In this document: in pieces, positions 15,089 to 35,342 of the stretch
How positions within the stretch are numbered: the first letter of the stretch is position 1
Layout: the number at the start of each line of letters is the position of its first letter
NCBI GenBank assembly: GCA_023254355.1
Contig: JALRLR010000004.1
Span: 1-35,342, forward strand
Reading direction: 5' to 3'
DNA length: 35,342 nt
Origin: Candidatus Poseidonia sp.
GTDB lineage: Archaea; Thermoplasmatota; Poseidoniia; Poseidoniales; Poseidoniaceae
Notes under the pieces: generated by a model
The model's database searches: none
Seen by the model: the letters and a program-made list of their open reading frames with translations, nothing else
Told to the model about the DNA's origin: nothing
Position numbers and translations under genes: made by a program

Positions 15089-17074
15089 ATGGAAACGATT
15101 TTTATCGCCGGCGGCTTCATGATTGCCCTTCTTTTTGCCCTCTCCCAATCGTTGGCCAAAGGCGTCGGCTCGATTGGCGGGGCGTTGCAACAAATTGGAT
15201 TGTTCATTCTCCGAAAGAACCCTCCCGGCTTGGTTGACATCTTTGATGACAAGGACGGCAGTGGGTCCCGAACGTGGATGAACTTCGGCATGCTATGGCT
15301 CGTCTTCGCCGGCATCCTCGGATTCCTTGGTGGCTGGCACAATTACGACCCCACCGCGCTGGACTCCTTGGCCAGCGTTGGATGGTCCTACGACGACGGC
15401 TCCTCGCTCAACGATGCTACCGTGAACTTCCTCTCCATTGCCCTGATGTACGGCTTGGTGGGCAGCGCCATGGTCGCCGCCGCTCGAAACGGCAACGGTC
15501 GGTTGGCCAGCGAAGCCAACGCTTCCATGGTGGGCGTGCTTCTCAGCGCCGTTCTGCTTGCCACCTACCTGCTTCCGTTTGTCTTTGGCTTCTTGGACAT
15601 TGACACGTCGGAAAACCCGGTTCGCACCGTCCTGTTTAGTTTGGAGACCTTTGTGGTCGGCATGCTGCTTATCCCGGTACTCATCAACGTGTTGATCACC
15701 GTTTCCCAACGCGGTGAGCAGGAACTCCAGACCAGTGCTTGGTTCCTCATCATGGGCTTGGCCGCTTACATTCTCTCCATGCTCTACATGTTCTTTGGCG
15801 ACTTGGCCGACGCTACGCAAGTGGTGTGGTTTGCTGAGCGAGTGGCCCTTGGTTGGGTTCCGCTCGCCCTGATGTTCGCCGTGGGCTACCACGTCGTGCC
15901 CATGGCCGCAAAACAACCGATTTGGTCGGCTTCCTTGCGTTCGGCGAGCATGCTGTTGTTGTTCGTGACGGTTCCTCCCTTCTTCATGACCGATGCGTCG
16001 GCCGGAAACTTCGTCACCAATCTCGGGGCGATTTTGCTCACGCTTGGCTTGTTGCCCATCTTCGCCGCTTCTATCAACCTCGTGATGACCGCCTCGAGCG
16101 GTTTGAGCTCGGTCGTCAAGCACCCCGGTGCGATGGCGGGCACCATGGCGTTCCTGGCGCTTCCCTTCTTTGCCGTTGGTGGGTACTTCACGGGCATGGA
16201 TACGTTCGTGGGCACCGGTGAATTGGGTTCCATGGCCACCGTGGTCGACCTCGGTGCGTTGTTCACCGTCGGCGGTTTGCTCGTTTTGGCCGGTGTGTTC
16301 ACCAACTATCCGCTTGCCATCGGCAAGCCCCTTGCAACCCCTTCAACCGCCACCATGGCCGCTTGGCTGGTTTTGGTTGGCGGCGTGGCCTCGACCTTGA
16401 CCTTCCTGACCGGTGAATTCACCGCCAATGCCGTGGCCGCTTCCGAGGTCGAGGACGTCGTGGCCAACAACGGTGGGTTTTACCTCACCGGGTCAGCGCT
16501 GTTCTACCTCTTGGGCATCGGCGCCATTTTGGCCACGATGGTCACCATTCGGACCGGTATTTCCGCAACCGGGCGGTCCATCGACAGCACCGTTTCGTCC
16601 GACATGAGCACCTACACGCTGGTTGAGGGTTCTTCAACCACCATCCGTTCCCTCATCGGTCGGGGTGTGGGCGTGGACACCGAGTTGATCGTCAGTGCCG
16701 GCGAGTCCAGCGATGGCGGCTCCACCATCATCGGCGTGGACGCCTCTCTGCACAACGACGAAATCAAGGAGTTCCCCGCCACCACGGCCCAAGCCATGGT
16801 TGATTTCGTTCAATACTTGGTTGACTCCAACCAATCGGTCTTCCAGTTGTTCCGCAGCATGGACCTTGATGATTCAGGGAAGATCGACAGCCGGGAATTT
16901 TTGGCAGCCTTGGAGAATTCCAACATCAACGCGCTCTCGTCGATTGAAGCGGCTGAACTCGTTGAGAGCATGGACCTTGACGGGGATGGGGAACTCAACC
17001 TTCCCGAGCTTGACATTGCCATCGCTCAAATCAAGCGAGACCACAACATCACGCCCAACTCTGAAGAAGAGTGA
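15089..17074 (+). CDS. Polytopic membrane protein resembling heme-copper oxidase (CcoN-type) subunit I without metal-ligand histidines, fused to a C-terminal EF-hand pair
   Basis: ~12+ hydrophobic segments; VALGWVPLALMFAVGYHVVPMAAKQPIWSASLRS and NLGAILLTLGLLPIFAASINLVMTASS align by eye with CcoN [30 protein letters not shown] and SLGMVxSLxLxxPSWGGMINGxMTLSG; EF loops DLDDSGKIDSRE and DLDGDGELNLPE. Confidence 0.65.
   Translation: METIFIAGGFMIALLFALSQSLAKGVGSIGGALQQIGLFILRKNPPGLVDIFDDKDGSGSRTWMNFGMLWLVFAGILGFLGGWHNYDPTALDSLASVGWSYDDGSSLNDATVNFLSIALMYGLVGSAMVAAARNGNGRLASEANASMVGVLLSAVLLATYLLPFVFGFLDIDTSENPVRTVLFSLETFVVGMLLIPVLINVLITVSQRGEQELQTSAWFLIMGLAAYILSMLYMFFGDLADATQVVWFAERVALGWVPLALMFAVGYHVVPMAAKQPIWSASLRSASMLLLFVTVPPFFMTDASAGNFVTNLGAILLTLGLLPIFAASINLVMTASSGLSSVVKHPGAMAGTMAFLALPFFAVGGYFTGMDTFVGTGELGSMATVVDLGALFTVGGLLVLAGVFTNYPLAIGKPLATPSTATMAAWLVLVGGVASTLTFLTGEFTANAVAASEVEDVVANNGGFYLTGSALFYLLGIGAILATMVTIRTGISATGRSIDSTVSSDMSTYTLVEGSSTTIRSLIGRGVGVDTELIVSAGESSDGGSTIIGVDASLHNDEIKEFPATTAQAMVDFVQYLVDSNQSVFQLFRSMDLDDSGKIDSREFLAALENSNINALSSIEAAELVESMDLDGDGELNLPELDIAIAQIKRDHNITPNSEEE
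16858..17020 (+). other. Two EF-hand calcium-binding loops at the C-terminus of the 15089 gene product
   Basis: FRSMDLDDSGKIDSREFLAAL and VESMDLDGDGELNLPELDIAI fit DxDxDGx[IL]xxxE. Confidence 0.9.
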
Positions 17075-17089
17075 TGCCTTCATCGGGTG

Positions 17090-18376
17090 ATGAAGGTGCG
17101 AATCGGTCTGGTTGGCAAACCAAACGTTGGCAAATCCACGTTCTTTAGCGCCGCTACGCTGGCACAAGTGGACATTGCCAATTACCCGTTCTGCACCATT
17201 GACCCCAACGTCGGCGTTGCCTTTGTGCAAGCACGTCAGCCCTGTCCGTGCCAAGCCCTGCGGGCCAGATTGGAGGGGGAAGGGCGTTTGGAACCTGCAT
17301 CGGCGGAGGACCCCCGCCAGGGCAGTCTCTGCGAACCGAGAACCGGGACATGCGTGAATCATCGCCGTTCCGTGCCGGTGGCGTTGGTCGACGTAGCGGG
17401 CTTGGTGCCTGGGGCCAGTGAAGGCAGGGGTCGAGGCAATGCCTTCTTGGCCGATTTGGCGAACTGTGATGTCTTGATTCAGGTGGTCGATGCCGCCGGG
17501 ACCACGGACGAAGAGGGCCAGTTCTTGGGGGCCGCTTCCTCAGCCGAGGAGGCGGTGGGGCGCGTTCGTGCCGAGGTGGCGTTTCTTCAGGACGAATTGG
17601 ACGCCTGGATCGGTGGCTTGCTTGCGGAAGGGTGGAATCGAGGCGTACGACGCGTCCAAGCCGAAGGCGAAAAAGGCCTCACGAGTTTTGTTCATGAGCG
17701 CCTCAGTGGCTTGGGGGCGACGCCCACCAAGGTCGCTCAAGCGATGGCGAACTTTCGCGACCTCGCCCCCACCGACCAGAAACCGTGGGATTGGGATTCA
17801 GCCGTGTTGCGCACGTTGGGCCAAAGCCTCCGAAAGCAACTGTTCCCCATCGTGTATGCGGCCAACAAGGCCGACATCGCACCTCCCAGCGTGGTTGAGG
17901 CCTTTCCAGAGTTGACGATGATTCCCTGCATGGCTGACATGGAACTGGCGTTGCGTCGAGCCAGCGGCTCGGGGTTGATTCGATATCAACCCGGCGATGC
18001 TTCGTTTGAGGTTCCAGCCTCTGCTTCGTTGAGCGAGGCTCAATCAAAAGCCTTGGACCACATGCAGCAACGCCTGGCAATGATGGGCGGGACCGGGCTT
18101 GCTGGTTTGATGGATCGTGTGCTGTTTGCGGAACTTGACCACATCGTGGTGTATCCCGTTGCGGATGAAACGCACTGGGTTGACGGGGATGGTCGAGTGC
18201 TGCCCGATGCCTTCGTGGTGCCACGTGGACTCCATGCCAAAGCGTTGGCCGGACGCGTGCACACTGACCTTGGTGAAGGTTTCATTCGAGGCGTGGACGG
18301 ACGCACCAAACGCGTGGTGGGTGCAGATCACGAACTCTCGGACAACGATGTGCTGAAGATTCACGCCAAGACGTGA
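17090..18376 (+). CDS. OBG/YchF-related GTPase with TGS-like C-terminus
   Basis: G1 GLVGKPNVGKSTFFSAATLAQVDIANYPFCTIDPN, G3 VALVDVAGLVPGASEGRGRGNAFLADLANCDVLIQVVDAAG, AANKADIA, C-terminal RTKRVVGADHELSDNDVLKIH. Confidence 0.92.
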   Translation: MKVRIGLVGKPNVGKSTFFSAATLAQVDIANYPFCTIDPNVGVAFVQARQPCPCQALRARLEGEGRLEPASAEDPRQGSLCEPRTGTCVNHRRSVPVALVDVAGLVPGASEGRGRGNAFLADLANCDVLIQVVDAAGTTDEEGQFLGAASSAEEAVGRVRAEVAFLQDELDAWIGGLLAEGWNRGVRRVQAEGEKGLTSFVHERLSGLGATPTKVAQAMANFRDLAPTDQKPWDWDSAVLRTLGQSLRKQLFPIVYAANKADIAPPSVVEAFPELTMIPCMADMELALRRASGSGLIRYQPGDASFEVPASASLSEAQSKALDHMQQRLAMMGGTGLAGLMDRVLFAELDHIVVYPVADETHWVDGDGRVLPDAFVVPRGLHAKALAGRVHTDLGEGFIRGVDGRTKRVVGADHELSDNDVLKIHAKT

Positions 18377-18377
18377 A

Positions 18378-18764
18378 TCAATGTCCTTTTGGTCGGTCGT
18401 AGGCAGGCGTGAGTCGAGCCATGTCGCCCGAGTATCGTCCGCCTCGGTAGAGGAACAGAACGGGTGCTGCCAACGTCAACAGGAGCAGCAAACCGAGGAA
18501 AAACAACCCCCACGGTTCAACGTCCGAGAGGGTTGCGGCCCAGAGCACCCACAAAAACGGAAGATAGAGGAACACGCTGTAGCGTCGAGCCACCGTTGAG
18601 AAACGAGCACTCGAGGTGTCTTTGTCAAAGAGGACGGGAACCTCTTCTTTGGTCACGAGTCCTTTGTCAACGCCGCATTGAACGCATACTTGCGTGTTGG
18701 GTCCGTTGCCGTGGATGAAAAATTCACGAGGGTACGTGCTTCCGCAGTGACGACACGCTGGCAT
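18378..18764 (-). CDS. Zinc-ribbon membrane protein, unknown function
   Basis: CRHCGSTYPREFFIHGNGPNTQVCVQCG followed by two hydrophobic segments. Confidence 0.7.
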   Translation of the reverse strand: MPACRHCGSTYPREFFIHGNGPNTQVCVQCGVDKGLVTKEEVPVLFDKDTSSARFSTVARRYSVFLYLPFLWVLWAATLSDVEPWGLFFLGLLLLLTLAAPVLFLYRGGRYSGDMARLTPAYDRPKGH

Positions 18765-18800
18765 GATGCTTCCTCATGCTGCCCAGCGGGAAGGGATTCT

Positions 18801-21050
18801 TCAACCATCCGATTCGATTTCCAGAAACGCCCGTAACAAGGAAGCCCCTTCGGGCGACCCGATGGATTCTGGATGGGCTTGGAGGGTGTGAATTGGCAAG
18901 GTTGGATGATGCATGCCCATGTTCAAACCCGTGTCTCGTTCGGTGAGGTTCACTCGCAGGCCATGGCTGCCCGTTGGCAGGGCCACCAACGAATTGTACC
19001 GAGTCAGCAACGTCTCGGCAACGGCGCTGCCCTCAAACAGGCCTTGACCGTCGTGAATCATCACGGTTGGCACCCCGTGTACGGGTCCGTGGGGTGAAGG
19101 AACGATGTGCCAACCGTCGGCTTTGGCGAGGGCTTGATGGCCCAAGCAAATACCCAACACCGGGAGGTCCAACTGCCCCGCCAACGCATGATGGGCCAAG
19201 GCCAACGTGAGCGGGCAGTCATCCGGCGTACCGGGGCCGGGCCCCAGCACCAAATGAGACGGCTGCAATCGCTCCAACAGGTCGTTCAGCGCTACGGGGT
19301 CAAGCCATGCTTGGGAGGCGGGTGACCGCCCCTCCAACACCGTGACGTTGTGGCCGGTCAGGGCCATGGCATGAGCGATGTTCATCGAGAACGAATCAAG
19401 GTTGTCAATGAAGAGCACACCGGTTGAATCCGGGTCGCTAAGGGCCTGTTCAAGCCGTTGTATGGCGCCGCTCTCAGCGTTATCTGCAGGTCGAAACAGC
19501 GGGGCGTTGACCGGATGGATGCTCAATGAAGCGGTGGGGAGGACGGCATGCTCGGCCCGCATCCATCCTGCGGCCAAGCGAAGGGCCGCTCCTTTCCACG
19601 CGGCTTCAGCCACTTCCTTGACCGGGTCGGACGCGATGGTGATGCCTCCTCCAGCCCCCGCGGAGGCGTGCCAAACGCCTCCTTTTCGATGGGCCTCCAG
19701 CGTCCGAATCAAGATGTTCCATGCGCTTTGCCCTGAATGAACATCGATGTAGCCGATGGAACCGGTCCAGAAGGAGCGCGGCATCTGTTCCAACTCATCG
19801 ATGACCGCACAGACCACCGTTCGGGGACATCCCGTGATGGACCCGCCTGGAAACACGGCTTGCAGGGCCGAAGCGCCGGTTGAGGTGGGCTGAAGCGTTC
19901 CCGAAACATGGCTTACCAAGTGTTGGACATTGGCATAGGCTTCAACGTCAAAGCGGTCCACTTTGACCGTTCCCGGTCGGGCGATGTGCGTCAAGTCGTT
20001 TCGCATCAAGTCCACCAACATTCGGTGTTCTGCCCGTTCTTTTTCATCTTCGATCATCGCTTGACGGAGTCGTTCGCTCTCGGCGATGTCCCTCCCCTGC
20101 GGGCAGGTGCCTTTGATGGGGGCGGTGGAAACGATGGTACCATCGCAGGTGAGCAGCGATTCGGGGGATGAACTTGCCAAGGCGAAGCCGAGGTCTTCGG
20201 CTTCAACGTAGGACGCGTACGGTGCAGGGTTGATGTCCAGCAGTCGGTGGAAGACGTTGTACGGATGGTCAATTTCCCCGCGCCAGTGCTTTCCGACGTT
20301 GACCTGGTACACTTGTCCTCGAACGATGCCGTCTCGAACGGCTTGGATGTTGTCTTGATGGGTTTCGTCCGTATGGGTCACCGACTCTCGATGTTGGACA
20401 AGGGGGGGTGACTGGAGGGGTGTCAAGGGGTGTCGAAGGGCTTCTTCAGCCCGTTCGCACCAAGCCACGTCGTTGCCGAACACGGTGCAACGTCCGTTCG
20501 AAGCGTCCAGGGCGAGGCCGCCGTCAACGCACCACAGCACGGCGAGCAAGGCGCCGACTTCTGGTGGGTGCTGAAGGCGTAGCGGTTGGGTCCATTGAAG
20601 CAAATCATAGGCCAAGGCGCCGCACCAAAACGGTCGTTCTGGAAACACCGCTCCGTGTTGAACATGAAACGGTGCGGCCGAAGTCTCCGGCTTGAGTTTG
20701 ATCATCAAATCTTCGAGGTTGTCCGCATGGAGGGTGACGCTGTGATACCACGAACCGTGTTTCCACGCCTCAACTTCGGCCCTGAGTCGAGGTGTTTCTG
20801 CTTGCAGGCGTAGGTCGCCGTTCAGCGGGGAATGGGGGGGTGCCGCCGGAAGAAAATCACGGGAAGGTTGACGGATCACGACCCGTTTCTTGGCAGGTGC
20901 TGCCACCAAGGACCACGAAGCGAGATGGGAGGGTGGACCCGCTGAAACCAGAAGCGTCTTGTCAGGCGAGCCGTAGCGGAGCGCCATTTTTCCGAGCAGA
21001 CCCTCCTGCGTGAGTCGGTGAACCATGGCAGGTACATCATCCGACACGGT
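18801..21050 (-). CDS. Aminodeoxychorismate synthase, fused PabB-PabA (chorismate-binding + glutamine amidotransferase)
   Basis: VNVGKHWRGE, SSSPESLL, STAPIKGTCPQGRD (PIKGT favours PabB over TrpE), HRMLVDLMRNDL, FPGGSITGCPR, GAGGGITIASDP; GATase LFIDNLDSFSMNIAHAM, LVLGPGPGTPDD, GICLGHQALA, LQAHPES. GTG start at 21050 or ATG at 21026. Confidence 0.85.
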   Translation of the reverse strand, partial: TVSDDVPAMVHRLTQEGLLGKMALRYGSPDKTLLVSAGPPSHLASWSLVAAPAKKRVVIRQPSRDFLPAAPPHSPLNGDLRLQAETPRLRAEVEAWKHGSWYHSVTLHADNLEDLMIKLKPETSAAPFHVQHGAVFPERPFWCGALAYDLLQWTQPLRLQHPPEVGALLAVLWCVDGGLALDASNGRCTVFGNDVAWCERAEEALRHPLTPLQSPPLVQHRESVTHTDETHQDNIQAVRDGIVRGQVYQVNVGKHWRGEIDHPYNVFHRLLDINPAPYASYVEAEDLGFALASSSPESLLTCDGTIVSTAPIKGTCPQGRDIAESERLRQAMIEDEKERAEHRMLVDLMRNDLTHIARPGTVKVDRFDVEAYANVQHLVSHVSGTLQPTSTGASALQAVFPGGSITGCPRTVVCAVIDELEQMPRSFWTGSIGYIDVHSGQSAWNILIRTLEAHRKGGVWHASAGAGGGITIASDPVKEVAEAAWKGAALRLAAGWMRAEHAVLPTASLSIHPVNAPLFRPADNAESGAIQRLEQALSDPDSTGVLFIDNLDSFSMNIAHAMALTGHNVTVLEGRSPASQAWLDPVALNDLLERLQPSHLVLGPGPGTPDDCPLTLALAHHALAGQLDLPVLGICLGHQALAKADGWHIVPSPHGPVHGVPTVMIHDGQGLFEGSAVAETLLTRYNSLVALPTGSHGLRVNLTERDTGLNMGMHHPTLPIHTLQAHPESIGSPEGASLLRAFLEIESDG

Positions 21051-21786
21051 CCAACCTCGGTTGCGACCACGAGGCTTCTTCGGTAAAATATTCCCGAAGC
21101 AGGCGTTGGCATTGGTCGGAGAGGAGGTTGGAGGTGCCAACGACTTCTCCGTCCAGCGAGTCAACCCGGCACGCCCCCATCCCGGTGCCCACCAAGACCA
21201 ATTCTGCGCAGCGAGCCACGGTTCGTTCGTTCAAACGCCCTCGAACCACGGGGAAGCCCTGGTCGGGGAGTTTTCGTTCAAGAACCGAGGCCGTGATGCC
21301 GTTGACGCCCCCGTCGCTTTCGGGTGCAAGCCACACGGTTCCGTCTTCGTCCAAGACCATCGGCGTGCCTCGGTCACCGTCAACGATCGCATGTTCGTGA
21401 ATCAACAACGCCGCATCGCACCCGGCTGCCTCGGCCGCTTCTTTGGCCTTGATGTACGGCTCCCATTCGCCGTGCTTGCATCCATTGGTTCGTTCGTTCC
21501 AACGCGGTGCAGGTACACCGATGGCGTCGATGGCTTCGTTTCGAAAAGCCAGGTCTCTGACCTCAACCTGCCACGTGTTCGTTCCCGCTCGACAAGCAAG
21601 ACGAGCCAACCTCCACCCTTCGCTGTCGTGAGAGGGGAGCACCGGTGGTTCAGTGGGCAAGGTGATTCGGAGTCGCTGTGCGTGCTCAGCAAGGCGCTCA
21701 AGATGCATGGGCCAGTCGGCGACGTGACCCTTTTCATTCACCAACGTCGTGGTAAACACTTCACTTCGCGGTCCTTGACGCTCCAT
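21037..21786 (-). CDS. Class IV aminotransferase, 4-amino-4-deoxychorismate lyase (PabC)-like
   Basis: GCKHGEWEPYIKAKEAAEAAGCDAALLIHEHAIVDGDRG... NGITASVLERKL; position overlapping the PabB-PabA fusion. Confidence 0.72.
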   Translation of the reverse strand: MERQGPRSEVFTTTLVNEKGHVADWPMHLERLAEHAQRLRITLPTEPPVLPSHDSEGWRLARLACRAGTNTWQVEVRDLAFRNEAIDAIGVPAPRWNERTNGCKHGEWEPYIKAKEAAEAAGCDAALLIHEHAIVDGDRGTPMVLDEDGTVWLAPESDGGVNGITASVLERKLPDQGFPVVRGRLNERTVARCAELVLVGTGMGACRVDSLDGEVVGTSNLLSDQCQRLLREYFTEEASWSQPRLDRVG

Positions 21787-21795
21787 GCTGGGCCC

Positions 21796-24700
21796 TCACA
21801 GCAGGTCGTCGAGGAAGGACGTATCGATTTGCGGTCGCTTCTGGACGGGTTCCACTTCATCCAACAGTCCGTTCAGCACGTCTTGGTTGACCTGAGGCCT
21901 GAGCACCGGTTGTTCGGGTTGGTAGGCTTGGCGACCGAAATTTGCTTCTTGAATTTGGTTGGCGGCAGCGTACAGGTCGTTGGCTTGCTGAGTGGAAACG
22001 CCTTGGGGCGGCGCAGGAGCCGACGTTGGTGCACTGGGTGCTGGCATCGTGGGCGGGGTGTCCCAATCGCCTTGAATGCCCCAAGTGGCTTCTTGAAGTT
22101 CCCAGCTCTTGGACCGTTGCGATGCGTTACCACGAGAACGGACGACCACAACCAGCAAGAGCAAGATGATGATGAGCATGCCCGCAGCGATCAAATTCGG
22201 CCCGGTCAGGAGCGAGTCTAAGGAAAGTTGTCCCGTTTCATCGCCGGTCGGTTCACCGGTGCCCCCGACTTCCAGCGGGTCCAACTTCACGACCTCAACC
22301 GTGGTTTTGGCCACGGTGTCGTCATAGGGGACGACCCCAACGAACCACGCCGTATCGTTGCTCAACGCTTCAAACAGCGCCGGCGTGATGAGGAAGGTGT
22401 TGGCCGAAACCGTTTGACCGACCATCGTGGCGTCATCGGTTGACGTAAACGCTTCCTCGCTGATGTAGATGTGGTAGCCGCGAACGTTGGCGTTCACCGA
22501 ATGTTGCCATTCCACCAGAACATCGGTTTCGGTGGACCAGCCGACTTCAACCTTCTCAATGTCTGGCAAATAGTTGCCCGGGTCGGTGATGCCCTCGTCC
22601 GTTGAGGTGCCCGATACCATCGTCAGCAGGGTCGTGTAGGCGTTGCCCGATGAATCAGTGGCCACAACGGCCACCCAAATCTCTTGGCCAGGGATGACGG
22701 GTGCATCGCCTGCGACGAGGTCGATGACCACGGGCATGGACGGGTTGCGGCCCAGCGTTGAGACGGGGGCCATTTGTTGAGAGACGGTTCCATCAAAGTT
22801 GTAGGTGGCCGCATATACGTCGTACGTTGCCACGTCACCGGAACTCGACGGTCCAAACGTCAAGAGCAGCGCCGACCCGTCGTCGTTTGGACGGTCGCTC
22901 AGCGTGAGTTCGGTCACTCGTTCGGGGGCCGTGTTGTCGTTTTGATTGTCCACCGGCGTGACGCTGACCTGCGTAAGTTCGGTGAGATGGACGTTCCCCT
23001 TCAAATCGTGCACCGTGACGGCGACAAACAGTTCAACACCGGGCTGAATCAGCCCTGGCGTACCTTCGGTCAGGGCGCCTCCCTGCGGGACATAGAGAGC
23101 GGTGGAAAGCGTGAGTTCAATCGGGTTGGTTCGCTCATCAATCCATTGTTTGTTGAAGGAGAAACACCCGCAGCTTTCCGGATTGGTACCAAAGGCGGCG
23201 TAGGCGGACGAAAGGTCCTCCACCGGGGCACTGGACACCCATACCGTGTAGGATGCGAAGTCGTCGACGGTTGAAGGCTCCCAAACCACGTCGATGGCCG
23301 TTCCGTCGTCGTTGGGGTGGTCGAAGGCCATGAGCGCCGTGATTCGCGGCGGCGTCGTGCCGGGGCCGACGATGTTCTGGAACGGCGTGACCGTGACGAG
23401 GTTGACAACCTCCGTGTTGCCGTTGAGCCACACATCGTAGGCCACCACGCCCACCGTGTAGATCTGTCCGTCGATGAGCGGGACGCCGTCAAGGCTGGTG
23501 ATGACGATTTGGGTTTCATCACAGGGATTGAGGATGGCGGCCTGGGAGAAGCCGTCAATGGACCCCATGTCGCCGTTCGCGGTGTGGTTTCCTTGCCTCA
23601 TGTACACCGTGTAGAAGGCACAATCTTCCGCCGAACTGCCGTTCCACGTCACGGAAATGCGACCGCCCTCGTCTTCGGGGACATCGCTGGCTACCGTTCC
23701 TTCGATCGGCGCTGGCGCTTCGTTATCGTTCAGTTCCCCGGTCGGTACGACCGGTCCCACCACCGTCATGTCGGAGAGGTTCTCCTGGCCCGCTTCGTCC
23801 GTGCAGGTGAAGCCGATCCAGACGGGAACGCCAGGGGTGAGTGAAAGAACGGATTGGTTGCCTTCGTTGGGTGCGATGGTGGTGAGCGGGGTGCGACCAA
23901 AAGCATCCGTCATGAGGGTGGTTCCCACGTAGATGTTGGTGGCGGCAAGGTCAAGTGCCGTGCATCGAGCCCATTCCACCTCAACGTCGCCGTCGTCACC
24001 GTTGGAGCCCATGGCTTGAGCCGTTGCCCAAGCAGGCGCCTTTGGCACTTCGTCGCTGGGGCTGGCCGGGCCGAACGGGGCGGACACAGCCCCCCAGCGA
24101 CCGTCGTTGTACTCAACCACAACCACGGCGTGGTAGTCCGTTCCATCTTTGAGCGGCAGACCGTTCGCCGTCTCAATATCGGCCGAAAGCCGGCTGTGCA
24201 ACGAGATTGTTTTGTCCGGGGTTTGCCCGAGCAACATCAATTCATTCGGAGCGCTGGCCCACGGCCCTTCGTTGACAAACACGAGGTAGCGGGCGAAGTC
24301 TTCGTCGTGAACCAGAGACCACGATGCGGTGAGGGCACCCCCACCATCGTCGGGTCGGTCGACCAAACCTTCCATCGTGACCGGTGTGTCTGAGCGAACA
24401 TAATCGTACGTGAGTCGAGCTTCAAGGGTGCCGTTGGACGGGGCGTAGAGCCTCAGAGAGACATGGCGGGTGTTGTTGTAGAGTTGTCCGTTGTCCACTG
24501 CGTCTTGCAGGTTAAGGGCCAATGCAGGGTCGTTGCTGATGTCGAGGGTGACGTCGTATTTCAGCGACACCGATTTTGCCCAAACGGCTGCACCGGTCAC
24601 GGGCGAGGTCATCACGATCGGGACGTTTTGGAACAGCAGGTTGTGGGCTCCAGGCGTGCCCATGGTGGAGTCCAAAGCAAACGGATCGTTGGCGTCGATG

Positions 24701-27700
24701 AGTTGGATGCTCATGCCAGGGTGCGTCATGTCCGTGACGTTGATGCCGCCTCCGTTGTTCATGGCGCGAAGCGTCAGCGGCAACGCTCGTCGCATCGAAC
24801 TCTGTTCCATGGCAGGGTATTGGCCGCCGTTGGCGTACCCCCGCAAGCCTTCTTCGGTGAGCAACCATACGGTGTTCGTGCCCAACGTACCGCCAACAAC
24901 GTTGCCTGGTCGGAAGGTCTGAAGCGAGTTGTGGTTCGTGGAACGGGCTTCAACCAACATGGCGAAGTCGTCGCCTCCAAGAGCCAATACCTCGTCCCCG
25001 TTGCTGAACATTCCGTGAACGGGGTATTGGGATTGCATGAACGCCACGCCGTCCTCAAAGTCGCCACTGGAAGCGTTCCAATGCGTGAGCGGCCAACCAG
25101 CGGTGGCGATGTGAACACCCCACCAATCCACCGTGAGGGAGGTAACGGTGTTCGAAGGCAGTTGGTCAAAGCGGTGGGTGGAGACCACTTGGTTGGTGGC
25201 CGCATCGAGCAGGCTCACGCCGGGACGTTCGGATCCTCGCCCGTCGTGACTGATGAGCAGGGTGGTGGTCCCGCTGCTGCTGGTTTGGGCCACCAATCCC
25301 CAGGCCGAGTTGCCCATCAACCCGTTGTTGGTGGTTAGGGTTGACCCGGTGTTGCTGTTGGCGTCCCAAACGAAGACGCCCGAAGGGGTGGCCATGTAAA
25401 CGATGTTCCCCACCGCAGCGACGTCCTCAACGATGGCGTTGGGCAGGCCGTTGCTCGCCGTGATGGAATCCATCCAGTCGTTGGTCGTGTAGTTCCAGCG
25501 CCCCACGCCTCCATTGGTGGCGATGTACAGGATGGAGGAGGTGTCGGTAAAGCCGTTGACAATGTTGGAGGGTAGACCGGCGATCAATCGGCCGTTGCCG
25601 AATTGGTCCGTGGCCGGGTCAAAGAGTTGCACGCCGGGAGGACTGCCTCCATCGCCAGCCAGCCCGATGACGAGTTGGTTGTTGTACGTGTGCATCGTGT
25701 CGAATTTCCCGTGCAACGACCCCGAAATGGCTGAAATCGTTCGGGTTTGAGTGTCCAGCTTGTGCATGCCATCGGGGTTCGACGCAATGTAGAGGGAGGT
25801 GCCTTGCAAATGCAAGTCGCTGGCGACGGTGTTCCCAGGAAGGGTCCATCCGTATTGCCATTCCACGGTCCCGTTGGGAAGGAACGTGCCTTGCAGAAGC
25901 CCTGTCCCGCTTCCACCGCCGTTGCCCACGCCAAACTGGGGACCGCCTCCGGTCGCCGCCCAAACATGGGTGCTGTTGGCCACCATGGCCGAAACCTGTC
26001 CGCTCACCAAGCCGGGCAAGTCAACGAGTTTCTGCATGCCAGAGGAGGAAAGCGTGGAGACATGGCTGTAGCCCGAGGCGCCACCGGCTTGACCGATCAA
26101 CCACTGTGAGTTGCTGGCTTGCCATTGGAACGAGGTCACGGAGGAACCACCGCCGTAGACTTGGGCTTGCAGCGCCGTGGCCCCGTTGGCGACCATGGTG
26201 GAATAGCCGCCTCCAATCACGTTGGAGCCCGATGCCCCGATGCCGTGGCCCACGAGCAGTTGCGTGCCGGAGTGAGCCAATCCGTCGTACCACACACGGT
26301 CGCTGGGAAGGTTATGGCTGGAGGTGGTCAGGCTCGAGAGGAAAGCGTTGGAGACGTAACTGTAGCGCGTGATCGGTTGGTTGTCGTTGTAGTATCCGAT
26401 GTACAAGGTGTCTTGAGCGTCGCAAGCGACCGAGGCGGGAGCAAAACCGTCGAGTTGGCTGCGGTCAAAGTCGGATTGGACCGAGGCGTTTTGCAGGTCG
26501 ATTCGTGCGATGCCGCCGTTGCCGTTGTACATGGCGATGTTCAGTAAACCACCGCACATCTCCATCGAGATGGGATAGCCGTCGGGGATGTTCGTGTTGG
26601 AGTCGGCGGCGTAGGCGGTCCAAGCGCCTGCTGAGTTTCGGTGCGAGATGACGCCTTCAATGAAGCCGCCAAAGTTGCTGAATCGGACCCCTCCGACGAC
26701 GAGGTTGGAACCGTCGGTCCACAATTCGTAGAATACACTCCCAGCGTTGTTGGGAAGGCCGTTGCCAGCTTCCCACTTTGAACTCCACTGGTTGGTGGTT
26801 TCGTTGTAGCGCAGGATGCCCGATTCGGTGGCGAACAGGGTTTCGCCGTTGTGCTCAACGATGCCTCGGATGGGCAAGTCAAACGAGGTCCACGAGTTGA
26901 CCAGCGAGAGGTTCGCATCGTACAACTCCAGCTTCAATTCGCCCCACGCCACCCACGTGTTGCCGTTGGAGGATTCGTAGGCGGTCACACGGTCGATGGA
27001 ACCGGTGGGCAAGATGTTCGTGGCGAAGGTGGAGGTCACCGTGTTCCAGCGAGCGATGCCACCCGAACCGTCGGCGTTCCACCATTGTCCAGAGACCACG
27101 CTCACAAGCAATTCATCTCCAGCCAGTTCCATTTTCACGATGTCCCCGCCGTTCTCGCCGACCTGTGCTCCCATGTCGAGGTTGCTGGGTGCCGTGAAAT
27201 TCACGAGGTCCAAACGACTGACTTCATCGCTTGCGGTGCTGGCGTGATAATAGAGGATGTTGTTGTGAACAATCAAATCGTGAGGGTCGCCGTTGGCGTT
27301 GTAGAGGACGCTGTTCGTCTCGATGTCGTAGGCTTCGGCGCCCGTCGTGACGTTGATCAGTTGGAAACCGTCGCCTCCGCCGACCCACAGCAGGTTGGGG
27401 CGAATGTCGGCGACCAGGCCCGTGACGTCGTCGTTCCCTCCGTCAAGCACCCCGTTGTCTTCGTTGAACGGCGTGAGCCATTGGTTGGAGGTGATGTTGT
27501 AGCGCAGCACCCCCAGCCCTTCGGTGCCAATGTAAGCGATGTCGCCCATGATTTCGACCACGGCGTTGCCGGTTTGGGTTCCTTCGCCCCAGTTTGTGTC
27601 GTGCTGGAAGTTGGATTTCGTCACCAGGCCCACCCCGGAATTGGTGCCACCGTAGACGTAGGTGGCGTCAACGCCGACGCTGTACGTGGCCCAATTGGGC

Positions 27701-30105
27701 ATGCCGTCGTAGACGTTCTGACAATCATCAACGGCCATGGTCGACAAGGTGTATTTGCACAGGCCGATGTTGGTGCCCGCGTAGAGCGAACCTCCGTCGA
27801 TGGCGAAATCAAAGAATTGTTGAGGTCGCGTTTGCCACGAGCTTCCTTGGCCGAAGTTGGTGGCTTGTTGCCCGTCCCACTTTCGAGCGCCTTGTAGGGT
27901 GCCGATGTACAAATTCGACCCGTCCGATTCGAGGGCGTAAATTTGGTCGGATGGCAACACGCCGCCTCGGTTCGCAGCGGTGAGCGGGGAGAGAATTTCA
28001 CCCGTGCTCATGTCTTTTCGTGCGACGCCGTATCCTTGGAGTCCAAGGTGCAGCACGCTGCCCACCATGGCGACCGGGGCTTCGTTGACGCCGTTTACGC
28101 CCGTTGAGCCCCATGGCTGAAGCCAGGTGTCGTTGGTGATGTCGTAGCGCAACACACCTTGGTTTTCCGTGGCCACGAAGGCTTTGTCACCGAAGAGGGC
28201 GACATCGCCCACAAAGGAGGTCGGCAAACCGTTGGTGGTGTCGTACGAGGTGCATCCGCTGGTGGCTCTGTCAAAGACAACGAACACGCCGCTGTCGAGG
28301 GTCATGACCACCGCATCTTGGTTTACGTCCAGGCTGAGAATGTTCGAGGTTGATGGATAGCATCCGTTGGTCCCGTCGAAGGTCGAAACGACTTGACCGT
28401 TGGCATCGATTTCCTTCACCACGCGTTGGGTTTCCATACCGGCGAACAAGGCGTCGCTGCCCCCTCCGGATGACGGGCCCGTGACCAGGGCGATGACGTT
28501 GTCGTTGAGGGCGGTCCAAGGGGGGAGCCACACGGTGTTGGCAAGGTCGTAGCGCAAGAGGCCGGTTCCGTCCCCCGTACCGATGTAAAGCATGCCGTCC
28601 AATTCAACAACCGCCGTCATGTCGTTGCTTGCCGGCCCGCTGGCCAGCACGAGGTTGTCCTCAAGCAAGGGCGTTTGTCCCGGGACGAGGTGAGCCAGCG
28701 TTCCGCTTCCATCGTCGACCAGCAACGATGTTGAGGGGGGTGCAGCCGGGCCGACCGCATCCCAAACGAGGAGGGATTCACCGTTGCCGGCGAGGTTGAG
28801 GTTCGCCAAGGAGTACGTGGTGGAGAACACCCCGTTGGTGACGTTGTAGGTGTGGATTGAATCGCCGTTGAGAATGTACAACGTGCTGCCGACGCGTTGG
28901 AGGCCACCGATGTCGTTGCTGTTCAGCCAGTTGGCTGATGTCCAGGTGGAAAGCCAAAAGCCAGAGGCGTAATCAAAGCGACCAACTCCGGTGTCGGTCG
29001 AACCGAGCAACAATTGATTGCCGGACACTTCCATGGCCACAACATAGTCGGAATGCAAACTGTTCGCCGTGCTCCATGTCGAGAGGGGCTGGCCATTGGC
29101 GGTGTTGAACCGCAACACGCCTGCGCCAGCGACGGCGGCGTAAACGATGCCGTTGACTTCGGCCATGGCCAGCGCTTCGGTGGGCGTATCGCTGCTCGTC
29201 ACCGAAACTTCAGGGTTCCAAGCGCTGCCCGTCCACGAGTACAGGCCCATGCCATCAGCGGCGAACACGTCTCCGGAGGCGGTGACCAGGAACTTGTCCA
29301 TGGTGGCGGTGCGAAGCGGGGTCTGCACGCTGCTGTCTGTCAACGACAGGGCGCGGAAGGTTCCATCGCCCAGAAGCAGATGAAGGACGTTGTTCCCGTC
29401 AACTTCGAGGTCCACCACACCGCCTTCGGCCGTGTAATCGTAGCCGTCAACGATCATCGGGTCGTTGTTGGCGTGAAGCACCAACAAGCGTTCGGAGGTG
29501 GCCAGGTAGAGCAAGCCGGTTTCGGGGTCGACCACCGAATCGTGAATTTCGAACTCCACCGGCATCAGCGAAACCAAGGCGTCGGAAGGCGCCAGCACTT
29601 CAATGATCATCTCGGTGATTTCAGCATCAGAAGGCAGCGTCCATCCAGCCCCGGAATTGCTGTTGGGGTTCAAGCGTCCGCTGTAGGTGGGTCCTGAGGC
29701 GAAGGCGTTGGCTTCCCCGAGGACCCCGAGACCCCGCCAGTCAAACAGGGACAACCCCATGCCGTTGACGGTCAAGTGTGGACTGTCGATGGTCATGCCG
29801 TTTTGGCCACTGACCCGGAGCTCGAGGGTTACGTTGGACAACTCGGCACCGGGAGCGAAGGACAGGTTCCAGTCGGCCGTGGCTTGTTGGCCAGTCGCGC
29901 TGTTCGCACCGATCGCATCCAATTGCACCCATCCAGTGTCGTTGCTTCCTTGAAGCGGCCACGTGACGCCGCTGGGTTCGGCATGGGCCGAAACCGATGG
30001 CAGCATGGCCATGGGACTCATGGACATCAGCAGCATTAGCATGACCATGCCAATGGCACGCTGCGCTCCGGAAGTGCTGGTGGCCGGTTGGCGGGCCTTG
30101 TTCAT
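21796..30105 (-). CDS. Giant type-I membrane surface protein: signal peptide, many propeller-like repeats, tandem FN3-like domains, one C-terminal TM and cytoplasmic tail
   Basis: Signal MNKARQ...AIGMVMLMLLMSMSPMAMLPSVSAHA; repeats such as GVLRYDITNDTWLQPW, GVLRYNITSNQWLTPF, GILRYNETTNQWSSKW, GVGRWNYTTNDWMDSI; FN3-like D[RHV]P[NED]D[DE]G modules; TM LIAAGMLIIILLLLVVVVRSRG; uninterrupted 8.3-kb frame. Confidence 0.85.
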   Translation of the reverse strand: MNKARQPATSTSGAQRAIGMVMLMLLMSMSPMAMLPSVSAHAEPSGVTWPLQGSNDTGWVQLDAIGANSATGQQATADWNLSFAPGAELSNVTLELRVSGQNGMTIDSPHLTVNGMGLSLFDWRGLGVLGEANAFASGPTYSGRLNPNSNSGAGWTLPSDAEITEMIIEVLAPSDALVSLMPVEFEIHDSVVDPETGLLYLATSERLLVLHANNDPMIVDGYDYTAEGGVVDLEVDGNNVLHLLLGDGTFRALSLTDSSVQTPLRTATMDKFLVTASGDVFAADGMGLYSWTGSAWNPEVSVTSSDTPTEALAMAEVNGIVYAAVAGAGVLRFNTANGQPLSTWSTANSLHSDYVVAMEVSGNQLLLGSTDTGVGRFDYASGFWLSTWTSANWLNSNDIGGLQRVGSTLYILNGDSIHTYNVTNGVFSTTYSLANLNLAGNGESLLVWDAVGPAAPPSTSLLVDDGSGTLAHLVPGQTPLLEDNLVLASGPASNDMTAVVELDGMLYIGTGDGTGLLRYDLANTVWLPPWTALNDNVIALVTGPSSGGGSDALFAGMETQRVVKEIDANGQVVSTFDGTNGCYPSTSNILSLDVNQDAVVMTLDSGVFVVFDRATSGCTSYDTTNGLPTSFVGDVALFGDKAFVATENQGVLRYDITNDTWLQPWGSTGVNGVNEAPVAMVGSVLHLGLQGYGVARKDMSTGEILSPLTAANRGGVLPSDQIYALESDGSNLYIGTLQGARKWDGQQATNFGQGSSWQTRPQQFFDFAIDGGSLYAGTNIGLCKYTLSTMAVDDCQNVYDGMPNWATYSVGVDATYVYGGTNSGVGLVTKSNFQHDTNWGEGTQTGNAVVEIMGDIAYIGTEGLGVLRYNITSNQWLTPFNEDNGVLDGGNDDVTGLVADIRPNLLWVGGGDGFQLINVTTGAEAYDIETNSVLYNANGDPHDLIVHNNILYYHASTASDEVSRLDLVNFTAPSNLDMGAQVGENGGDIVKMELAGDELLVSVVSGQWWNADGSGGIARWNTVTSTFATNILPTGSIDRVTAYESSNGNTWVAWGELKLELYDANLSLVNSWTSFDLPIRGIVEHNGETLFATESGILRYNETTNQWSSKWEAGNGLPNNAGSVFYELWTDGSNLVVGGVRFSNFGGFIEGVISHRNSAGAWTAYAADSNTNIPDGYPISMEMCGGLLNIAMYNGNGGIARIDLQNASVQSDFDRSQLDGFAPASVACDAQDTLYIGYYNDNQPITRYSYVSNAFLSSLTTSSHNLPSDRVWYDGLAHSGTQLLVGHGIGASGSNVIGGGYSTMVANGATALQAQVYGGGSSVTSFQWQASNSQWLIGQAGGASGYSHVSTLSSSGMQKLVDLPGLVSGQVSAMVANSTHVWAATGGGPQFGVGNGGGSGTGLLQGTFLPNGTVEWQYGWTLPGNTVASDLHLQGTSLYIASNPDGMHKLDTQTRTISAISGSLHGKFDTMHTYNNQLVIGLAGDGGSPPGVQLFDPATDQFGNGRLIAGLPSNIVNGFTDTSSILYIATNGGVGRWNYTTNDWMDSITASNGLPNAIVEDVAAVGNIVYMATPSGVFVWDANSNTGSTLTTNNGLMGNSAWGLVAQTSSSGTTTLLISHDGRGSERPGVSLLDAATNQVVSTHRFDQLPSNTVTSLTVDWWGVHIATAGWPLTHWNASSGDFEDGVAFMQSQYPVHGMFSNGDEVLALGGDDFAMLVEARSTNHNSLQTFRPGNVVGGTLGTNTVWLLTEEGLRGYANGGQYPAMEQSSMRRALPLTLRAMNNGGGINVTDMTHPGMSIQLIDANDPFALDSTMGTPGAHNLLFQNVPIVMTSPVTGAAVWAKSVSLKYDVTLDISNDPALALNLQDAVDNGQLYNNTRHVSLRLYAPSNGTLEARLTYDYVRSDTPVTMEGLVDRPDDGGGALTASWSLVHDEDFARYLVFVNEGPWASAPNELMLLGQTPDKTISLHSRLSADIETANGLPLKDGTDYHAVVVVEYNDGRWGAVSAPFGPASPSDEVPKAPAWATAQAMGSNGDDGDVEVEWARCTALDLAATNIYVGTTLMTDAFGRTPLTTIAPNEGNQSVLSLTPGVPVWIGFTCTDEAGQENLSDMTVVGPVVPTGELNDNEAPAPIEGTVASDVPEDEGGRISVTWNGSSAEDCAFYTVYMRQGNHTANGDMGSIDGFSQAAILNPCDETQIVITSLDGVPLIDGQIYTVGVVAYDVWLNGNTEVVNLVTVTPFQNIVGPGTTPPRITALMAFDHPNDDGTAIDVVWEPSTVDDFASYTVWVSSAPVEDLSSAYAAFGTNPESCGCFSFNKQWIDERTNPIELTLSTALYVPQGGALTEGTPGLIQPGVELFVAVTVHDLKGNVHLTELTQVSVTPVDNQNDNTAPERVTELTLSDRPNDDGSALLLTFGPSSSGDVATYDVYAATYNFDGTVSQQMAPVSTLGRNPSMPVVIDLVAGDAPVIPGQEIWVAVVATDSSGNAYTTLLTMVSGTSTDEGITDPGNYLPDIEKVEVGWSTETDVLVEWQHSVNANVRGYHIYISEEAFTSTDDATMVGQTVSANTFLITPALFEALSNDTAWFVGVVPYDDTVAKTTVEVVKLDPLEVGGTGEPTGDETGQLSLDSLLTGPNLIAAGMLIIILLLLVVVVRSRGNASQRSKSWELQEATWGIQGDWDTPPTMPAPSAPTSAPAPPQGVSTQQANDLYAAANQIQEANFGRQAYQPEQPVLRPQVNQDVLNGLLDEVEPVQKRPQIDTSFLDDLL
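22430..24400 (-). other. Tandem FN3-like modules with recurring D-x-P-x-D-x-G...W...S...D...Y motif within the giant protein
   Basis: DRPDDGGGALTASWSLVHDEDFARYLVFV; DVPEDEGGRISVTWNGSSAEDCAFYTVYM; DHPNDDGTAIDVVWEPSTVDDFASYTVWV; DRPNDDGSALLLTFGPSSSGDVATYDVYA. Confidence 0.7.
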
Positions 30106-30294
30106 GGGATGAACCGGACTTTCCCCGTATTTGAAACAGGCCCCTAAATGACACAACAACGCATCGCGGCTTCGTGGATTTCGTCGTCAAAAAACGAGCG
30201 ACTGTGGTCAATCATCACCAAGACGGGCCCCAAACCCGCCATCGGGCGCACAACCCTCAAACGCTTTCCCGTTTCCCAACCGATTGGGCTTGCC

Positions 30295-32619
30295 ATGGCG
30301 ATGAAGAAAAAGGACCGCATGCTTCGAGATGAAGCGCTCCAATACCACGAAGCCGAGCCGCATGGAAAAATCAAGGTGGTCCCCACCAAGCCCCACTCAA
30401 CGGCTCATGAACTGAGCTTGGCGTACTCTCCAGGCGTTGCTTACCCCTGTCTGGAAATTGAGAAGCGACCCGAGGATGCTTACCGTTACACCTCCAAAGG
30501 AAACTTGGTGGCGGTGATTTCCAACGGGACCGCCGTTCTCGGTTTGGGCAACATCGGTGCATTAGCGAGCAAACCGGTCATGGAGGGCAAGGGGTTGCTG
30601 CTCAAGACCTTCGCCGGCATTGACGTGTTTGACATCGAAGTCGATACCGAAGACCCTGAGGAATTCATCAGCACGGTGGTCAACATCTCGAAGACCTTCG
30701 GGGGCATCAACCTCGAAGACATCAAGGCTCCCGAGTGCTTTGAAATTGAACGCCGAATAGCGGAAGCGACCGACATTCCGGTCATGCACGACGATCAACA
30801 CGGTACGGCCATCATTTCCGCCGCAGCCTTGCTGAACGCTGCAGAATTGCAGGGCAAAGCCCTGGCCGACCTCAAGGTCGTCGTCATCGGCGCCGGGGCC
30901 TCCGCCATCGCCTGCGCGAACCATTACGTCGCCATTGGTGTGAAGATGGCCAACATCACGCTTGTTGACAGCCAAGGCATCGTGACCAAGGCGCGCCTCA
31001 AGAACGGCGAATTGAACGAATACAAAGCACCGTTTGCCCACGACCGTCCCGCCGGGGATTTGAGCGATGCACTCAAGGGCGCCGATGTCATGTTGGGCCT
31101 CTCGCGCGGTGGTTTGGTCAGCGGCGACATGGTCGCCAGCATGGCGGACAAACCGATCATTTTCGCTTTGGCGAACCCAACTCCCGAAATTTTGCCCGAA
31201 GAGGTGCTGAAAATTCGAAAGGACGCCATCATCGCCACGGGCCGGTCCGATTATCCCAATCAAGTCAACAACGTGTTGGGTTTCCCTTACATTTTCCGAG
31301 GTGCGTTGGATGTTCGTGCCCGAAACATCACCCAGAACATGAAAATGGCGGCGACCAAAGCCCTGGCGGCCCTCGCCAAGGAACCCGTGCCCGATTACAT
31401 CTCGGCTGCGTACGACGGAGTGGTGATGCAATACGGGCCGGAGTACATCATTCCCAAGCCGTTTGACCGCCGCGTCTTGATTTGGGAAGCGGCCGCTGTG
31501 GCTGAAGCGGCGATTGAGGAGGGCGTTGCTCGCGTGACTTCGGAGGAGTTCAACCTCACCCGATACCGTGAGGAATTGGAGGCACGGTTGGGTGAATCCT
31601 ATTCCGTGATGCGACAGGTCATCAACCAAGTCAAGGGCAAAGGCAAGCGCATCGTGTTCCCCGAAGGAGACAAAGAACCCGTGCTTCGAGCCGCCGCCCA
31701 ACTCGTTGAACAAGACATCTGCCATCCCATCTTGCTCGGTCCCGTTGACCGCATCGACCGGATGGTTGAGGAACTGGGTCTGAACTTCACCTACGAGGCG
31801 TTCGACCCTCGCTACGACGAACGGCGAAAAACGGTGTATGCCAATGCGTTCTTCAAACGGCGACAGCGAAAAGGCATCACGTGGCCTGACGCTGCTCGCT
31901 TGTTGAAAAGCCGCCCTTACTTTGCTGCCCAAATGGTGGCCTCGGGTGACGCCGACGGCTTTGTTGGGGGGGTCAGTCGAAATTATGCCGATGTGTTGCG
32001 TCCTACCTTGGAATTGGTTGGCAAAGCCGACGATGCCCACTGCGTGATTGGCTGCTACATGATGAACGTCAAAGGGCGAACCATCTTCTTGGCCGACGCC
32101 ACGGTCAACGTGTATCCCGACAGCCGGACCTTGGCTGAAATTGCCGTCCAGACGGCGAAGGTGGCGCGCCGATTCGGTGTCGTGCCTCGCGTCGCCATGC
32201 TGTCCTTCTCCAATTTTGGGTCCACTCGAGCTCAACGAAGCGAGCGGATTGAAGATGCGGTTCAGATGGCTCGAACCCTTGACCCCACCCTGATGATCGA
32301 CGGCCCCATGCAAAGCGATACGGCGCTGAATCCGGCCGTCCAAGAGGAATATCCGTTCATGGAGTTGGTGGGGCCGGCCAACGTGTTGGTCCTGCCTAAC
32401 TTGGCCTCCGCGAACATCGCTTACAAGTTGCTTGAGGAATTGGGCGATGCCGAGATGACGGGGCCCATCCTCGAAGGCATGTCGCACCCCGTCCAACTCG
32501 TTGCTCGTCAGGACGGCGTTCGTCACATCGTCAACATGGCCACTATCTGCACGGCCGACGCCCTGCGAAAGGACACCACGTGGGCGACCCTCACGGGCGG
32601 TCAGGACACGTCATCGTAG
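30295..32619 (+). CDS. maeB: NADP-dependent malic enzyme MaeB-type with C-terminal phosphate acetyltransferase-like domain
   Basis: [118 protein letters not shown]-like [15 protein letters not shown]...[14 protein letters not shown]...[12 protein letters not shown]. Confidence 0.93.
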
Positions 32620-33449
32620 CGCAACAACGGACGTTTTGGCCGCCACACGGCTCCGCTCAAGAAGCCCGCACACAAGCCACCGAACAACAGGTTGACCCAT
32701 CCGGTGACGGCGTAGTCGCTCATTCCCCTGAAGATCGGAATCAAGAACGAGGGGACGATGCCCAAGAGGGTCATCCAGAGCAGTTCAGAGCGCACGTTCC
32801 CCCAGCGGTCCGTGGTCGCGGGGACTCGTTTTGCATCACCTTGACGAATCGGGGTCAACGCCAATCGAGCCACCACGTTGGGCAACGGGCGGTCGTGCGG
32901 GACGCTGGTCATCGCCGTGATGTCCATGTCCTTGGGATGAACGGCGATGGCGGCCATGTGATTGGAGGCGGGCCCGAGGATTTCGTTAGGACGCGGTCGT
33001 CCGTCCATCATGGCGCCGAGATTGTTGGACGCTGGCGCATCGGCCAACCGTTCCGTGAGGCTTGGGGCGAGGTTCAGGATGTTTTGGTTGACGGCCGCCC
33101 GCCATTCGCTTTGCGAGAGGGGACGAAGTTCCCACGCCCCTTCCATGGAATCGGTGAGGCCAGCGAAGGTTTCCGTTTGCATCAGGTGATGAGCCAACTC
33201 CATGACATCGTTGGAGGTGAGGTCTTCCATGGGTTCGTCGGGGGCGTCATCGGGGACCGGCGTGCCCATGGCGTGAGCGACGTCTCGCTTCGTCAACGGA
33301 TGAGCCATGACAAAGAACGCCGGAACGCGCGTCTCAAAACACGGTCGCTGTCCGGCGTGCATCCACCCTCCTTTCCGGGTACCGAGGATGACCGAGGTGG
33401 CTTGAACGGGATGAAATTCAAGGCCGTTGAGGGTGGGCGCCAAAGCCAT
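32601..33449 (-). CDS. Degenerate FGE/sulfatase-modifying-factor-like domain protein with C-terminal TM segments
   Basis: [21 protein letters not shown]...[23 protein letters not shown]...[15 protein letters not shown] resembles FGE-sulfatase 'F.m...eVTn..y...G...PV.gvsW.dA..fc..l....yRLPTEAEWEyAa'; two hydrophobic segments near the C-terminus. Confidence 0.5.
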
Positions 33450-33453
33450 CAAC

Positions 33454-34146
33454 TCACGCAAGGGAGGCTTCCATCCGTCGGTACCACGCCATGCCAGCGG
33501 GGTGGTCCTCAAGTTGTGAAAATTGAGGGAAGGGCGAAACGGAGCGCATGTATCCGAAGGCGGCGAAATCCACCAAATCCGGCCCTTCGCCTCCAAAGAA
33601 TGGTTGACCGTCATGAGCGTCGGTGAATTCCGTGAGGAGGTCGTGCCAGAGTTGTTTGGGCTTTCGACCGTCGTTCTTCACGCGCTTGCGAGCGATGATG
33701 CCCCACATGATGGGGAACCCCGCCCAGGCGTACAGTCGCTTTGAGAGAAATCCGAATTTTTCCAGTTTTGAGATACGGGTTGTGGTTTTGAGGGCCGAGC
33801 CCAAGGAGCCGTACAAGATGGGCACGGTGGCTTTGGACATGTGGGTGTCCACCCATTCCATCCAGGTGTCGTGTCGCGCTTGGTCACCGGTGTTGGCCAA
33901 CCGTCCTTCGTTGTAGGTGGCGTCAAGGTGTCGCAGGAGCGGTGTGGAATCCACGTGATGGTCGCCGTGTTCGTCGGTGAAGACCGGAACCTTGCCCCAA
34001 TCACCGGCAAACGCGACCTCTTTTCGAATTTTCATCCCGTTCACGCCCACCAATTCCACGTCCAAGTCGAGGTGTTCGATCAGCCCGCGCACCTTCCAAC
34101 AGAAGGGACAGGAATACAACAGGTGCAACTGTGGCGTTTGAGCCAT
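33454..34146 (-). CDS. Glutathione S-transferase-like protein with glutaredoxin-type CPFC N-terminus (mPGES-2-like)
   Basis: LHLLYSCPFCWKVRGLIEHLDLDVELVGVN...WGKVPVFTDEHGDHHVDSTPLLRHLDATY, C-terminal helical GST-like region ending in PFPQFSQLEDHPAGMAWYRRMEASLA. Confidence 0.78.
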   Translation of the reverse strand: MAQTPQLHLLYSCPFCWKVRGLIEHLDLDVELVGVNGMKIRKEVAFAGDWGKVPVFTDEHGDHHVDSTPLLRHLDATYNEGRLANTGDQARHDTWMEWVDTHMSKATVPILYGSLGSALKTTTRISKLEKFGFLSKRLYAWAGFPIMWGIIARKRVKNDGRKPKQLWHDLLTEFTDAHDGQPFFGGEGPDLVDFAAFGYMRSVSPFPQFSQLEDHPAGMAWYRRMEASLA

Positions 34147-34171
34147 GGCAATCGCTGTGGGGCGCCCTTCT

Positions 34172-34510
34172 TCAAGCCTCGTTCTCATCGTCTTGGGTGG
34201 GTTTCCACCCTGCTTTCCAAAAAGCGAGGTCGTCCAACCAGCGAATCCATTCCTGGTCGGAAGAGGAGAGAAGACGGAAGGCACGACTCTCCAAACCTTC
34301 CCGGAGCTGAGGTGCCATGTCTCCTCGGTCCACGGCGTCCTTCCATTCGACTTGCATGTGCCGAATTTGCCGCCGGGCTTCCTCGGGGTTGTCAAAGTTC
34401 ATTTCGCAAGCATCCCTCAATTCAGCCAGCCAGGTTCGGGTGTCTTTCAGAATGGGGTCGTTGTTGATGACCCGTTGTTTGGCCTTTCTCCCGAACGGCC
34501 ACCATCCCAT
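34172..34510 (-). CDS. Small hypothetical protein
   Basis: MGWWPFGRKAKQRVINNDPILKDTRTWLAELRDACEMNFDNPEEARRQIRHMQVEW...; protein-like composition, co-oriented with the GST-like gene. Confidence 0.5.
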   Translation of the reverse strand: MGWWPFGRKAKQRVINNDPILKDTRTWLAELRDACEMNFDNPEEARRQIRHMQVEWKDAVDRGDMAPQLREGLESRAFRLLSSSDQEWIRWLDDLAFWKAGWKPTQDDENEA

Positions 34511-34587
34511 GTCCTCCCCTTGGCCTCGTGGTTCATGGAGTTGTTCCTCAGCAACGGCTTCAAATCAAGGCCCTCGCTCCACCCGCC

Positions 34588-34925
34588 ATGGGCCGTTTGG
34601 TGATTCATAGCCACGGCGTGCCCAAGGAAAAGGCGTACAAACGCTTGATTGAACTCTACGGCGAACGCCTTCAGCCCCGCGGCGTCCGGGTTCAATACCA
34701 TTCCAGCAAGCTCTCGGCTGAGGCTTACCTCGACCGCCTCCACGAGGTCGGCGGAGACTTGATTTTGCTGGACGAGGGTGGCGCTCTGGAAGATTCATTG
34801 ACGTTCGCTGCACGCTACGAAGGGTGGCAGTTGAGCAGTCACACCACGCATCTGGCCCTTGGACCCGCTGCGGGATGGCCTGATGATGAGCGTCTTGCGT
34901 CCGTCCTTCGGCTTTCCCTTCCGCT
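34588..34925 (+). pseudogene. RlmH-like SPOUT methyltransferase, 3' end replaced/truncated at a sequence junction
   Basis: MGRLVIHSHGVPKEKAYKRLIELYGERL...LILLDEGGALEDSLTFAARYEGW...LALGPAAGWPDDERLASVLRLSL, then expected '(S)xxTLPHQL...' is missing and frame runs into unrelated sequence. Confidence 0.6.
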
Positions 34926-35342
34926 GACAAGACCAAATTGCTCGTACGGCAATACCTCTTCCCCCAAAAGTAGCACCAACCATTGCACCGGCCGCAGAAA
35001 TTCGTCGCGGGAACTGCCCCAACGCATCCGCTTTGACATAGGCAGGCTATTAACCGCATCTCTGATGATTTCGGGAATCACATCCCGAGCAACTGCTCCT
35101 GTTTCGGTAACCTGCGCGGTAATTCGCTCAATGCCATTTTCCTCTGCAATAGTGAGGTCTGACGTGCTGATGCCCTGTTTCCGAGCAAAACCCTCGGCTG
35201 CCGGAGTCCATTGACCGCCGTCATCTTTTGCCGCGCTGACGGGCGGGCCTACAATGCGTCGTTCTTGATCCGGCCCCCGGAGGGCGACGTCGCGCACCAA
35301 TACGGCGAGCCGCCTCGGTGTCGAAAACGGTTCCGCGCCGGA
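34915..35342 (-). CDS. glyS: Bacterial-type glycyl-tRNA synthetase beta subunit fragment, open at both ends
   Basis: Reverse strand from window end reads SGAEPFSTPRRLAVLVRDVALRGPDQERRIVGPPVSAAKDDGGQWTPAAEGFARKQGIS...LPEI-like VIPEIIRDAVNSLPMSKRMRWGSSRDEFLRPVQWLVLLLGEEVLPYEQFGLVSGR. Confidence 0.85.

Follow-up and report, generated by a model that had tools for sequence, protein, structure and literature searches.

Contigs that join the DNA of different organisms are frequent in short-read metagenome assembly; in one benchmark, megahit produced 22.15 and SPAdes 2.63 of them per genome (PMC11261854). Chimeric junctions are also formed during MDA, and 76.8% of these showed complementarity over 2 to 21 bp (PMC1855051). 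We analyzed a stretch of archaeal DNA of 35,342 nucleotides (the window), which is the entire contig C185, one of the 240 contigs of the fragmented genome G000 (1.63 Mb, 82% complete, 0.5% contaminated), and its right end was compared to both kinds of chimera. Like the chimeric contigs of metagenomes (PMC11261854), the window belongs to a fragmented genome, switches abruptly from one organism to another near the contig end and carries an arrangement that is absent from related genomes; unlike in those contigs, its two parts could share a word of 13 bp at most, which falls short of the usual assembly k-mers. The likeness to MDA chimeras (PMC1855051) lies in a short complementary stretch at the join and in the inverted orientation often found among them; those chimeras are, however, mostly intramolecular inversions, and an origin of that kind would apply only if the DNA of this genome was amplified. 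The end of the window is very probably an artefactual chimera produced during library preparation or assembly and not the outcome of a biological event, which was also the leading reading of an earlier note made from the letters of this DNA.

On the left side of the junction lies an archaeal rlmH-like gene that encodes a SPOUT methyltransferase and of which the first 111 codons remain (positions 34588 to 34920, + strand, beginning with an ATG at 34588); its product is 88% identical to the corresponding protein of the congener G024. At the DNA level, G024 matched the window with approximately 93% identity across positions 17006 to 34920 (17.9 kb), and this match ended exactly at 34920. G024 then reads on to a normal rlmH-like C terminus ending in YHKA, and other congeners read RLSLS.MTFPHEL...YHK at the same site, while the window gene is cut at the junction and lacks the last 33 residues of the congener protein. 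These results bear out the earlier claim that an RlmH-like gene on the + strand is broken after LRLSL. The intact G024 protein (144 amino acids) scored 88.8 bits against PF02590, well above the cut-off of 27, compared to 22.8 bits for the 111 residues of the window, which fall below it. In E. coli RlmH, residues E138, Y152 and H153 have been shown to be essential (PMC5430550). The C-terminal segment that would hold the counterparts of the catalytic residues E138, R142, Y152 and H153 was lost from the window gene at the junction, and their apparent counterparts (EQVYR...YHK) are present in the congeners. The congener protein clearly matched the NCBIfam RlmH equivalog models yet remained below their cut-offs, so "RlmH-like" is the right wording. 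RlmH-like SPOUT methyltransferases are widespread in this archaeal order, being found in 25 of 30 genomes.

RlmH has been described as a eubacterial enzyme (PMC5430550), and a bacterial contig with the rlmH-like gene as its foreign portion would fit that description. The gene was nonetheless found in 24 of the 29 relatives searched besides the window's own genome, that genome encodes the archaeal/eukaryotic-type ribosomal proteins S27e and L21e (both above their family cut-offs), and a bacterial contig is refuted by synteny, as the window is collinear over 34 kb with other members of the genus. Of the alternatives weighed here, we regard this one as the least credible, with a negligible chance of being correct. 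Collinearity with congeners extends from base 7 to 34920, and therefore the anomaly is limited to approximately the last 0.43 kb. A second chimera at the left end of the window, where the GC content is lower (0.538 over positions 1 to 1000), was considered and rejected, as the congener G002 is collinear with the window from base 7 to approximately 34670.

On the right side, an interior fragment of a bacterial glyS gene, which encodes the beta subunit of glycyl-tRNA synthetase, lies on the minus strand (positions 34908 to 35342). The fragment ends abruptly at the junction and, on its other side, runs off the end of the contig. It matched the GlyS-beta family PF02092 above the Pfam cut-off (minus strand, 34905 to 35342; E value of 8e-41; positions 40 to 182 of the 536 in the profile) and matched TIGR00211 with an E value of 7e-42 over approximately 142 of 684 positions, under the full-length cut-off, as is expected of a fragment. 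When compared to four loci from Halieaceae metagenome-assembled genomes, one of them from Luminiphilus, a genus of this marine gammaproteobacterial family, the encoded protein was 76 to 80% identical over the fragment; unlike the glyS genes at those loci, the window holds an internal piece only, bounded by the junction and the contig end. The DNA alignment with Halieaceae glyS was gapless from 34909 to the end of the contig at approximately 75% identity. The precise bacterial source of the piece was not recovered; the nearest relatives among the loci compared showed a DNA identity of only about 75%. Within a plasmid collection that includes chromosomal records of other bacteria, all of the matches listed were below 40% identity. 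Together, the PF02092 and TIGR00211 matches and the Halieaceae alignment confirm that the minus strand encodes the interior of a bacterial GlyS, as had been proposed.

The fragment resembles a bacterial gene in its pattern of substitution and its composition as well. In comparisons with three of the Halieaceae loci, pS was 0.62 to 0.64 and pN was 0.12 to 0.13, and no stop codons or frameshifts were present. Bacterial-type purifying selection thus acted on the fragment until essentially the present, as it would on a bacterial gene that is still functional. A comparison of composition, which had been suggested as a check in the earlier note, showed that, under an order-3 Markov model, the fragment scored lower than each of 82 equally long archaeal control windows and fell within the range of 95 Halieaceae windows, with the qualification that the samples were small and the training sets unequal.

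We then asked what the rest of the genome and its relatives contain. Among the 319 genomes of the order, GlyS-beta was found above the cut-off in one, the window's own, and was absent from the other 318; three weak matches within the order (profile positions 434 to 522) lie in other, long open frames. The DNA on the right of the junction had no match in any other of the 171 genomes of the family. No GlyQ and no further piece of GlyS were found in the window's own genome, and the pairing of a full-length GlyS with a GlyQ partner in the same genome, by which a bacterial alpha2beta2 glycyl-tRNA synthetase is recognized, is therefore lacking: the fragment has no functional context. The genome does carry its own archaeal-type homodimeric glycyl-tRNA synthetase (TIGR00389); its gene is cut by the end of contig C227, which leaves only the C-terminal half in the assembly (G000:C227:4538-5296). 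This partial enzyme, the lack of GlyQ in the genome and the lack of GlyS-beta in the other 318 genomes support the earlier view that GlyS is foreign to this archaeon. An old horizontal transfer, by which the archaeal lineage would own a bacterial-type glyS beside the rlmH-like gene, accounts for the presence of the fragment in the contig; it is at odds with its absence from all other genomes searched in the genus, family and order, with composition, pN and pS values that are those of a bacterial gene, with a glyS reading frame cut inside the gene at the junction, and with the archaeal synthetase present in the genome. We consider such a transfer very unlikely.

A 16-kb Luminiphilus locus around glyS was also compared to the window's own genome and matched only the glyS fragment and the archaeon's own gyrB gene. 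The four further matches to this locus were considered as additional contamination and rejected, as all lie in the long, open archaeal gyrB frame of contig C196, which probably belongs to the archaeon itself and is not a contaminant. This archaeal gyrB (L046 to L049, C196 at approximately 19996 to 21596) is 67 to 72% identical in DNA to that of Luminiphilus.

The breakpoint itself is sharp. Archaeal identity ends at 34920 and Halieaceae identity begins at 34909, both within the range of 34900 to 34935 given for the junction in the earlier note, and a base-by-base layout with the conserved flanking codons left no more than 13 bp, TCGGCTTTCCCTT (positions 34908 to 34920), that both parents could share. 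This stretch encodes family-conserved residues on both strands, RLSL on the + strand and RESR on the - strand, and conservation of the GlyS protein reaches the codon at 34908 to 34910, where the window reads SGRESR-R and its relatives SGRESR-GHRF. On one side, position 34921 of the archaeal gene should be a T or an A, to give the Ser codon seen in every relative shown, and the window has a C; on the other, the bacterial glyS needs a C at 34907 (the Gly codon of RGHRF), and the window has a T. Provided that the true parents have these two residues, the conserved Ser and Gly codons limit the exact shared word to 13 bp or less, and the microhomology is real at up to that length. The earlier suggestion of a sequence that could belong to both sides was correct in kind, and its length of 17 bp was slightly too long. 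No exact match to the junction word was present in the viral contigs searched.

A microhomology of this size is also compatible with a real end-joining event. Very recent illegitimate recombination, in which Halieaceae DNA was inserted into the archaeal rlmH-like gene by microhomology-mediated joining and caught before its decay or loss, would leave just such a stretch of up to 13 bp, and both parents were probably marine, which makes contact between them plausible. The event would, however, have destroyed the rlmH-like gene, with loss of the counterparts of the essential E138, Y152 and H153 of E. coli RlmH (PMC5430550), in exchange for an internal gene fragment that is useless without GlyQ, which is absent. 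In addition, no tRNA gene that could have served as an integration site was found in the window, the arrangement occurs in no relative, and the foreign piece extends to the contig end. Taken together, these observations make recent recombination improbable, although it is the least remote of the biological readings.

An artefactual chimera is the best explanation of the contig end. The two halves are of different organismal origin, and each matches an uninterrupted homologue, the left in G024 and other congeners and the right in Halieaceae glyS. The same arrangement in relatives, which the earlier note had named as evidence against a misassembled end, was found in no other genome of the 171 in the family or the 319 in the order; together with the selected bacterial fragment, its position at the contig end and the archaeon's own glycyl-tRNA synthetase, this supports the artefactual reading. 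The foreign stretch makes up the last 422 bp of the contig and stops at its very end. A real archaeal contig (position 1 to approximately 34920) would have been joined to approximately 0.42 to 0.43 kb of the glyS gene of an unrelated marine bacterium, with the glyS coding strand opposite to that of the archaeal gene and the join made through the shared stretch of 13 bp or less. We infer an in vitro or in silico origin for this join. The k-mers of short-read assemblers are usually 20 and up. The shared word is shorter than this, which somewhat favours a chimera already present in the library, or the joining of contigs or closing of a gap through a short overlap, over a plain k-mer collision.

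The chimeric end, which is almost certainly not a biological feature, is of importance only as a caution. From it, automatic annotation would call a bacterial GlyS in an archaeon as well as a false RlmH fusion of 228 amino acids, the latter from a spurious open reading frame that runs across the junction (positions 34528 to 35214, + strand); compared to the intact congener protein, its residues past 34920 are the antisense of glyS and do not form part of a real protein. Approximately 435 bp should be removed from the right end of the contig ahead of any analysis of transfer or gene content. If the join were real, it would represent a very recent transfer from a bacterium to an archaeon.

Two other genes of the window were noted. 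A fused gene at positions 30148 to 32619 (+ strand) combines malic enzyme domains (PF00390 and PF03949) with a phosphate acetyltransferase domain (PF01515), a layout familiar from bacterial MaeB-type malic enzymes. Closer to the contig end, positions 33454 to 34395 (- strand) of this archaeal genome encode a glutathione S-transferase-like protein (GST_N_3, E value of 2e-11).
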